64,000 bases of DNA. It comes from Thermosulfurimonas marina (GTDB taxonomy: Bacteria > Desulfobacterota > Thermodesulfobacteria > Thermodesulfobacteriales > Thermodesulfobacteriaceae). The DNA is taken from NCBI RefSeq assembly GCF_012317585.1, contig NZ_CP042909.1:1550001-1614000 (forward strand), written 5' to 3'. Position 1 is the stretch's first letter, and each line of letters opens with the position of its first letter. Positions 10,205 to 12,486 of this stretch are shown in pieces. The notes beneath the pieces are model-generated. The model was not told the origin of the DNA. It was given only the letters and a program-made list of their open reading frames with translations, and did no database searches. The position numbers and the translations under genes are program-made.

Positions 10205-10232
10205 TTGACAAAGTCTATTTCTGTAATAAAAA
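10205..10232 (+). promoter_or_regulatory. Putative promoter for the Sec-like tRNA / double-cubane reductase operon
   Basis: TTGACA at 10205-10210, then 16 bases, then TAAAAA at 10227-10232. The -35 is perfect and the -10 is weak. It lies 13 bases before the predicted 5' end of the tRNA-like element and points at it and the two genes behind it. Confidence 0.5.
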
Positions 10233-10245
10233 TTTGGGATCAATT

Positions 10246-10339
10246 GCCCGGGAGAGGGGGCTGGTGCTCCCCCGGGGCTGCAAACCCCGTGGGCCCCCGG
10301 AGAGAGGGGTGCTGACTGGTTCGATTCCAGCCCCGGCCT
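10246..10339 (+). tRNA. tRNA-Sec-shaped RNA with Cys anticodon GCA (unusual minor tRNA-Cys, tRNA-ReC-like)
   Basis: The element has a six-pair D stem (10256-10261 with 10266-10271) closed by a four-base loop TGGT, which is a hallmark of tRNA-Sec rather than ordinary tRNA. The anticodon arm is CGGGG/CCCCG with loop CTGCAAA, giving anticodon GCA (10280-10282). A long variable arm (about 10290-10315) pairs GCCCC with GGGGT. The T stem has only four pairs (CTGG/CCAG) with loop TTCGATT. The acceptor pairs 10246-10252 with 10332-10338, with a C-C mismatch at the second pair and an extra A at 10253 that may be bulged, giving an 8/4-like layout. The base after the acceptor is T, which fits Cys identity (U73). 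No CCA is encoded, unlike the three ordinary tRNAs in this window. It could be a functional nonstandard Cys tRNA or a decaying selC relative. Confidence 0.68.
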
Positions 10340-10366
10340 GAAAGAGGGACAAAGGAGGGATCGGAG

Positions 10367-11626
10367 ATGGACCGGGAGGATCTTTGGCGAGCTCTGGGAC
10401 TGGATTTAGAGGCCCATGGGGCGCTCCTTGAGGCCTTGGGTCCCCTTTACCAGGAGGTCTTTCTCTCCCAGGAGAATCGTCCGGAAGGTATGGGTTATTT
10501 CGATTCTGTGGTGGCGGACATCCACGGGGCCCGGGTGGCGGAGCTTTTGCAGATCCGGGAAAGCGGGCGCCCGGTGGTGGGAACCTTTTGTGTCTTCGTG
10601 CCCAAGGAGGTGATCTGGGCTCTCGGAGGGGCCTGTGTGGGTCTGTGTGCCGGGGTGGAGGTGGCCACAGAAAAGGTAGAGGAGCTCCTGCCCCGGAATC
10701 TATGCCCCCTCATCAAGGCCTTTTTTGGCTTCAAGCTAGCCCGCCTCTGCCCCTATATGGAGGTCTGTGATTTCCTGGTGGGGGAGACCACCTGTGACGG
10801 TAAGAAGAAGGCCTACGAGATCTTCGAGGCCTATAAACCCCTCTACGTGATGCAGGTCCCGCAGCGTAAGGATGAGGCGAGCTTCACCCTTTGGCTGGAA
10901 GAGATCCGGCGCTTTGTGAATCATCTGGAGGAGGTTTTGGGGAAAGCCCTTTCGCCTCAAAAGCTGCGGGAGGCCATTGAACTCATCAATCGCAAACGAA
11001 AGGCCCTGGCGCGGCTGAATCGCTTGCGGTTCAACGATCCTCCTCCTATTTCCGGGCGGGACGCCCTCCTCATCCATCAATTGGCCTTCTTTGACGACCC
11101 CGAAAGATTTTCCTCTCGGCTGGAGGCTCTATGTGATGAACTGGAGGAGCGAGTAAAGGCTGGAGAGGGAGTCTGCCCTCCGGGGACCCCACGGATCATC
11201 CTTTCCGGCTGTCCCATGGCTATTCCCAACTGGAAGGTCACCCATCTAGTGGAAACCTCCGGGGCGGTGGTGGTGGGAGAGGAATCCTGTGTGGGTTCCC
11301 GGTATGTGGGAGAGCTTGTGGCCGTCTCTGAGACCTCCAGAAAGGGGCTCCTGCGGGCCTTGGCCGAGAGATACTTCAAGATCGACTGTGCCATCTTTAC
11401 CCCCAACCCGGAGCGACGCCGGCACCTGGCCTCCATGGTCGCTCAGAGCGGGGCCCAGGGGGTGATCCACTACGCCCTCAAGTTCTGCGATCCCTACACC
11501 GTAGAGTCCTACCTCGTGGAAAGGGAAAGTCCGGTTCCGGTCCTTCGGCTGGAGACCGACTACAGTCCCGAGGATCGGGAGCAGTTGCGCACGCGGATTG
11601 AAGCCTTCCTGGAGATGCTCTCATGA
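10367..11626 (+). CDS. Double-cubane-cluster reductase (2-hydroxyacyl-CoA dehydratase-like)
   Basis: A 419-residue protein of the HgdB/YjiM superfamily (COG1775), related to BcrBC and the double-cubane-cluster proteins that reduce small molecules with ATP-activated electrons. Cysteines for iron-sulfur ligation are clustered around residues 112-145 (RNLCP, RLCPYMEVC, TTCDGKKK), and more lie at VGTFCVF, SGCPM, EESCVG and KFCDPY. The spacing and motifs fit the single-polypeptide double-cubane type. GGAGG stands 9-13 bases before the ATG. It is followed by its ATPase activator, overlapping by 4 bases, and preceded by the Sec-like tRNA. The substrate is unknown; acetylene reduction is documented for one family member. 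Confidence 0.85.
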   Translation: MDREDLWRALGLDLEAHGALLEALGPLYQEVFLSQENRPEGMGYFDSVVADIHGARVAELLQIRESGRPVVGTFCVFVPKEVIWALGGACVGLCAGVEVATEKVEELLPRNLCPLIKAFFGFKLARLCPYMEVCDFLVGETTCDGKKKAYEIFEAYKPLYVMQVPQRKDEASFTLWLEEIRRFVNHLEEVLGKALSPQKLREAIELINRKRKALARLNRLRFNDPPPISGRDALLIHQLAFFDDPERFSSRLEALCDELEERVKAGEGVCPPGTPRIILSGCPMAIPNWKVTHLVETSGAVVVGEESCVGSRYVGELVAVSETSRKGLLRALAERYFKIDCAIFTPNPERRRHLASMVAQSGAQGVIHYALKFCDPYTVESYLVERESPVPVLRLETDYSPEDREQLRTRIEAFLEMLS

Positions 11627-12486
11627 AGGTGGTAGGGCTGGACGTAGGCTCGCGGACGGTAAAAATAGTGGTGCTGGAAGAGGGGCGGGTGGTGGAGGCC
11701 CACCGGGAGGAGACCACGGCCCGCCTTCCGGAGCAATTGCGGGCCCTCCTTTCGGGGTTGGAGTTCGAACGTCTGGTGGCCACAGGTTACGGGCGCAACC
11801 TGGCCCGGGAGCTTTTTGGGGCCGAGACCCTCACCGAGATCCGGGCCCATGCCTTGGGGGTGAAACACCTCTTTCCGGAGGTCCGATCCATCCTGGATAT
11901 CGGAGGACAGGACAGCAAGGCCCTGCGCCTGGATGATTCCGGACGGGTAGTGAAATTCGAGATGAACGACCGCTGTGCCGCGGGTACCGGGCGCTTTCTA
12001 GAGGTTATGGCCGCGGCCCTGGGAGTCTCCCTGGCGGAGCTTGCGCAATGGGCCCTTTCTGCGGATCAAGGGGTGAATCTCAGCGCCCTCTGTACGGTCT
12101 TTGCCGAAAGCGAGGTGGTGGGTCTTATCGGAAGAGGGGAGGCCCCGGAGCGCCTCGCCCGGGGAATCGTCACCGCCATCGTTAAAAGGGCCCTGGGCCT
12201 TCTCAAAAGGGTAGGGGCGGAGGCCCCGCTGGTCTTTACCGGAGGGGTGGCCCTGAACCAGGCGGTGGTGAAAGGCCTCGAGGAGGCTTTGGGGTTTGCC
12301 GTCCTGGTTCCGGAGGCTCCCCAGATGACCGGGGCCCTGGGGGCGGCCCTTTATGGGGCTGAAGAGCGGATCGTGGGCCAGGCCTCTGGAGGCTCTCCCC
12401 CGGCTACGGCCCGCCCCAAGGCTTCGGCCTCGGACAGGGCCGAGGGATGTTCCTTGATGGCCCCGCGTTTTTCCACCCCGCGATAA
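11623..12486 (+). CDS. Acyl-CoA dehydratase activase-type ATPase (BadF/BadG/HgdC family)
   Basis: A 287-residue ASKHA-fold ATPase that delivers low-potential electrons to the double-cubane reductase at the cost of ATP. Visible motifs are VGLDVGSRTVKIV (phosphate-1), DIGGQDSKAL (phosphate-2), the cluster-ligand Cys in NDRCAAGTGRFLE and a second Cys in SALCTVFAESE, which together hold one [4Fe-4S] across the dimer, and FTGGVALNQ (adenosine site). The core ends near residue 250. The last 35 or so residues are low-complexity and lie antisense to the next gene, with 136 bases of convergent overlap, so this tail is probably incidental. Confidence 0.9.
   Translation: MKVVGLDVGSRTVKIVVLEEGRVVEAHREETTARLPEQLRALLSGLEFERLVATGYGRNLARELFGAETLTEIRAHALGVKHLFPEVRSILDIGGQDSKALRLDDSGRVVKFEMNDRCAAGTGRFLEVMAAALGVSLAELAQWALSADQGVNLSALCTVFAESEVVGLIGRGEAPERLARGIVTAIVKRALGLLKRVGAEAPLVFTGGVALNQAVVKGLEEALGFAVLVPEAPQMTGALGAALYGAEERIVGQASGGSPPATARPKASASDRAEGCSLMAPRFSTPR

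Follow-up and report, generated by a model that had tools for sequence, protein, structure and literature searches.

What would a tRNA that is built like tRNA-Sec but carries a cysteine anticodon do directly ahead of a double-cubane-cluster reductase operon? The question is raised by a locus of Thermosulfurimonas marina within the 64,000-nucleotide stretch of DNA analysed here (the window), and it is a puzzling one: UGA is out of reach of a GCA anticodon, and the genome also has a normal tRNA-Cys (GCA), so that a tRNA of this sort had no obvious purpose. The element occupies 10246-10339 and consists of a D arm (10256-10271) with six pairs and a UGGU loop, all of whose cells are paired in seven homologues from the order, the anticodon GCA (10280-10282) in a loop CUGCAAA (10278-10284) that is invariant among these seven, a long variable arm (10291-10314) with both-side changes at alignment positions 48:68, 49:67 and 53:63, a T arm (10315-10331) whose outermost pair (49:65) is A.C here and G-C in the other six, and the 3' acceptor strand (10332-10339) ending in discriminator U73 at 10339 (all plus strand). 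A sequence-only reading of the locus had already named the six-pair D stem, four-base loop, long variable arm, GCA and U discriminator (the last two as Cys-type features), and in this it was right. Its four-pair T stem holds for the window's own version, with A.C at 49:65, while the homologues favour five pairs. U73 and GCA are identity elements for CysRS, and its suggestion that the element may be charged with something other than Cys finds no support.

The Rfam tRNA-Sec model RF01852, a kind of check proposed in the same reading, aligns to 10246-10338 across all 91 model positions with 51.7 bits (gathering 47, E 9e-9), and a combined pattern of Sec-like D arm, TGCAAA loop, long variable arm and T arm matches once in the window and in 0 of 100 shuffles. 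ARAGORN made no call for the element at 10246-10339. Minimum free energy folding neither recovered the cloverleaf nor rose above shuffles (z -0.38), for which reason we set free energy aside as support and turn to covariance and homology instead. Judged by these, the element is a genuine tRNA-Sec-like RNA gene. No CCA is encoded, as had been noted, and since many other tRNA genes of this genome likewise go without it, its absence is uninformative; an argument for decay from the missing CCA was rejected on the same ground.

Homologues were compared across the order, where seven members are known to us: the window element, three from the same genus (G414, G416, G417), one from a genome (G364) that matches T. 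dismutans, and two from a sister family (G248, G396). In a scan of 41 order genomes with a covariance model built from the seven, members scored 96-110 bits and everything else reached at most 73 bits; the matches of this second group that were read are UCA tRNA-Sec. Since a model built from the seven must fit them, what counts is the lack of any intermediate or additional member. Over 29 pairs and seven homologues, 96.0% of cells are paired, both-side changes occur in 8 pairs (shuffles, 3.8 +/- 1.3) and the covariation score is 0.250 (shuffles, 0.147 +/- 0.022), figures which, being shuffle counts on related sequences, are not probabilities. Controls with a slid structure pair far less well than the real one, and U73 is found in 7/7 members.

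These data bear on whether we are looking at a pseudogene, that is, a former selC*-type tRNA-Cys (see below) decaying in the window strain next to a reductase operon that is retained independently of it. The acceptor C-C mismatch that had been pointed out (2:71, nucleotides 10247:10337) is indeed there and, like A.C at 49:65, private to the window genome, the other six order members having G-C at 2:71; moreover, the -10 box of its relatives is not preserved, and G416 (columns 4:91) and T. dismutans (columns 72:86) each show one further stem mismatch. Against decay stand the pairing and compensatory changes over seven genomes, the invariant anticodon loop and U73, a conserved upstream palindrome and a position ahead of the reductase gene kept in all four congeners that have it. 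To our minds, a decaying relic is thus unlikely.

Nor is the element a new kind of tRNA: its features place it in a rare class that is already known, selC* tRNA-Cys (Mukai et al. 2017), and that is described in a 2020 review (PMC7609411) and in PMC9437257. The sequence-only reading had pointed to a minor Cys tRNA mimicking tRNA-Sec, and such a class exists, albeit not under the name 'tRNAReC', which we did not find in the literature covered; the tie it drew to Deltaproteobacteria was too narrow, as Thermodesulfobacteria are already among the reported phyla in the portions of PMC7609411 compared. Hallmarks given there are a Sec-like body, a long variable arm, GCA or UCA, and U73, of which the window element shares the body, GCA, U73 and the arm. 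It differs in its branch, for which 7/5 (acceptor/T) with a three-base linker is favoured over 8/4: G49:C65 is present in 6/7 members and an 8/4 register would demand an A8.C mismatch, whereas selC* is described with an 8/4 branch and a bulged A51a. Since the bulge is reported to be dispensable (same portions of PMC7609411) and 8/5 forms occur among distant GCA members, we regard the difference as falling within the range of the class and go no further than calling the element a selC*-type tRNA. From canonical bacterial tRNA-Sec (RF01852), with which it shares the six-pair D stem, four-base loop, long variable arm and an above-gathering score, the element is set apart by GCA rather than UCA, U73 rather than G73 and a 12-pair rather than 13-pair branch. 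Allo-tRNAs (8/4, 9/3) also have non-canonical branches and turn up in tRNA-Sec searches, but theirs is a serine-type identity, unlike U73 with GCA.

What else the genome (1.76 Mb, one contig) provides is relevant here. Its canonical tRNA-Sec carries UCA and G73 (G000:C1:1438791-1438882), and there are also one SelB unlinked to the element and a formate dehydrogenase gene, fdhA, with an in-frame TGA, so that three of the parts the sequence-only reading wished to see checked (normal tRNA-Cys, canonical tRNA-Sec, SelB) are present. It follows that the element is an extra, second GCA tRNA, and that selenocysteine is probably decoded in the usual way, as far as the gene set tells. This leaves little room for a variant tRNA-Sec that places selenocysteine at Cys codons after Ser charging and SelA action. 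Although the Sec-like D arm, variable arm and Rfam score would fit it, and Sec decoding at Cys codons via tRNA-Sec anticodon variants exists in some bacteria (PMC8124441), SerRS reads G73, according to the passages of PMC7609411 compared, and not the U73 found here, and a separate UCA/G73 tRNA-Sec and a TGA-containing fdhA sit in the same genome. On U73 and the separate tRNA-Sec we rejected it as highly improbable.

Linked selB* (and cysS*) genes are reported only for Syntrophobacterales and Desulfobacterales, other groups not being bound to them (PMC7609411, as far as compared), and the window genome has no dedicated SelB* or CysRS* linked to the element, which adjoins the reductase and its activase instead. 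A second CysRS was considered as a dedicated CysRS* and rejected, for it is a cysteine-synthase fusion found order-wide with or without selC* and unlinked to the element. This 778-amino-acid protein joins a cysteine synthase (CysK/CysM family) to a complete CysRS (G000:C1:1100000-1101373 region; L205:565-2901, plus strand); nearly all 41 order genomes have a second CysRS of that length, in G396 it is the sole CysRS found, and our literature search returned no description of such a fusion.

Downstream of the element, which ends 27 nt ahead of its start, lies the gene for a double-cubane-cluster reductase of the HGD-D family (DCCP; 10367-11626, plus strand; NF040772, 465 bits, cut-off 350; PF06050), followed by its activase (11623-12486, plus strand; BadF/BcrAD ATPase family; TIGR00241, 223 bits, cut-off 125; PF01869), whose start overlaps the DCCP stop (ATGA). 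The C-terminal part of the activase, roughly residues 246-287, extends past the family match and shares 136 bases (window 12351-12486) with a convergent FMN-reductase-like gene on the minus strand (12351-12956).

The proposed linkage to the DCCP operon holds well beyond the window. The element directly precedes DCCP, at 26-29 nt, in 4/4 DCCP-bearing genomes of the genus; in G396 it sits shortly behind the operon, and in two other phyla (L054, Nitrospirota; L051, Elusimicrobiota) DCCP, activase, YedF and the element occur together. As for co-occurrence across the order, DCCP is found in 6/7 selC*-positive and 10/34 selC*-negative genomes (Fisher p 0.009, uncorrected for kinship). Counter-examples are T. 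dismutans, which has the element and no DCCP, and ten DCCP genomes that lack the element. DCCPs of the six positive genomes form one clade (support 100/99) and those of L051 and L054 are sisters in another, which means that two DCCP clades show the association. A horizontal transfer that carried selC* together with DCCP was also considered; the DCCP tree is compatible with it, but an unrooted split is no proof.

Such spacing might suggest that the element is a leader: a tRNA-like fold in the 5' untranslated region sensing SelB, CysRS or charged tRNA to control DCCP translation. Its end lies 26-29 nt from the DCCP start in four congeners, and some selC* elsewhere sit about 20-40 nt ahead of yedE, yedF or selB starts. 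However, T. dismutans and G248 have no DCCP downstream, and in these two and several Firmicutes the neighbouring gene on that side is either distant or oriented the other way. At other loci that gene is a different one or points away, the G396 element lies behind the operon, and U73 and, where encoded, CCA are retained though a leader would not need them. Cis regulation by a leader RNA, which the sequence-only reading had put forward as one option, therefore strikes us as improbable as a sole role.

Upstream, a promoter-like stretch (10205-10233, plus strand; 10/12 in a consensus scan) comprises TTGACA (10205-10210), a 17-base spacer and AAAAAT (10228-10233). The element had been credited with its own TTGACA -35 and a weak -10: TTGACA is there at 10205, and with AAAAAT 17 bases on the scan found 1 such site versus 0.5 expected by chance. 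The TATAAT of relatives, which is sited further downstream, is absent from the window. Overlapping this stretch, and more telling, is a near-palindrome, TATTTCTGTAATAAAAAT (10216-10233), which stands ahead of the element as an exact copy in G414, G416 and T. dismutans and with 1 mismatch in the window; it is degenerate in G417. At 0-1 mismatch the near-palindrome TATTTCWGTAATAGAAAT is single-copy in each of these genomes (window genome, G414, G416, T. dismutans) and always upstream of the element, so a regulon search at that stringency returned the selC* copy only and showed no shared regulon. As the palindrome precedes the element even in T. dismutans, where no DCCP follows, the element has a conserved control region of its own, which argues for a trans-acting product.

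If so, where might such a product act? Distant homologues were searched with one strict pattern, GCA fixed and position 73 left free (UCA forms are outside the sample), in a collection of one genome per species; 51 matches, seven of them false, gave 44 genomes, and many of the distant loci come from metagenome-assembled genomes. Outside Cloacimonadota, all readable distant elements with an encoded CCA have U73 (about 33, counted by eye), and this recurrence at a position that the pattern left free supports charging by CysRS. SelB is found in 41/44 genomes; the exceptions (Planctomycetota L016; Cloacimonadota L038 and L052) are none with a clear U73 element. A UCA/G73/CCA tRNA-Sec pattern matches 29/38 distant genomes, one match being doubtful. 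Recurrent neighbours, by ORF clustering and family scans, are selenium_YedF (TIGR03527), LysR_Se (NF040786), the YedE selenium transporter (TIGR04112) and SelB, and at least one of YedF, LysR_Se, YedE, SelB, SelD (identified solely from its similarity in sequence and a motif), FdhA and DCCP lies in 25/38 distant loci (tblastn; mean 7.4 kb), the chance level for a random stretch of that length being a few per cent by an arithmetic estimate rather than a control run.

This places DCCP in a wider setting. According to the sections of Lin et al. 2015 (PMC5322559) compared, neighbours of YedF, LysR_Se, SelA, SelB and SelD include a 2-hydroxyglutaryl-CoA dehydratase subunit and an activase, the same DCCP-type pair as in the window, and a later preprint (PMC10418091) draws DCCP/DCCPR inside selenium clusters; from both we take DCCP to belong to a selenium setting. 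Those sections mention no tRNA-Cys-like RNA, which in the window adjoins DCCP. A special relevance of cysteine-ligated clusters, as first suspected, is weakened accordingly, since the linkage extends to YedF, YedE, LysR_Se, SelB and SelD with DCCP as their known neighbour. In the excerpts of PMC7609411 and PMC9437257 compared we found mention neither of a DCCP and activase linkage of selC* nor, in the literature covered, of a selenium-gene context, the comparison lying outside the primary selC* papers (Mukai 2017; Vargas-Rodriguez 2018). Clustering with selenium genes alone says nothing on mechanism. Together with the prevalence of SelB genomes and the genus-wide position ahead of DCCP, its recurrence over several phyla gives an orphan tRNA a link to selenium that can be put to the test.

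In sum of the comparisons, the element at 10246-10339 is probably a trans-acting, selC*-type auxiliary tRNA-Cys. It would be transcribed ahead of the DCCP-activase operon, excised like other tRNAs, receive CCA from nucleotidyltransferase and be charged with cysteine by CysRS through U73 and GCA. It would then serve as a second, trans-acting Cys-tRNA(GCA), co-expressed with selenium- and redox-handling genes. Its 12-base-pair acceptor/T branch in this order should also suit EF-Tu for delivery. Its Sec-like D and variable arms suggest contact with Sec machinery, either SelB or, as ligand or competitor, SelA, which reads the tRNA-Sec D arm (PMC7609411, portions compared). More tentatively, its purpose may be tied to selenium status by balancing Cys versus Sec decoding. 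CysRS*/selC* has been posited to build selenoproteins with Cys under selenium scarcity (PMC9437257, in part), but that idea concerns UGA decoding, which is closed to a GCA form; for the window element, auxiliary Cys decoding linked to selenium is our best guess. A bolder and rather doubtful proposal would have selC*(GCA) serve as a SelB-linked cysteine channel to UGC/UGU codons that were once Sec sites or lie within selenium-linked mRNAs; if true, cells would shift between Sec and Cys decoding by selenium status, with DCCP as a coupled output in the window's genus.

The distant sample holds some further observations. Five Cloacimonadota elements (L017, L038, L039, L052, L057) are GCA tRNAs whose D arm is Sec-like and whose variable arm is long, but they have G73-CCA in place of the U73 seen elsewhere, and a 1:72 mismatch; SelB is missing in 2/5 of these genomes, and we consider them probably another kind of tRNA. 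At L009, L012 and L033, selC*(GCA) lies 21-40 nt ahead of a SelB-like gene, and a Nitrospira-labelled metagenome-assembled genome among them has three SelB matches. In two deltaproteobacterial ones (L019, L027), fdhA carries TGC at the usual Sec site, a codon that matches the GCA anticodon, and lies 5-16 nt before selC*(GCA), which at L019 is followed after 22 nt by a SelB gene.
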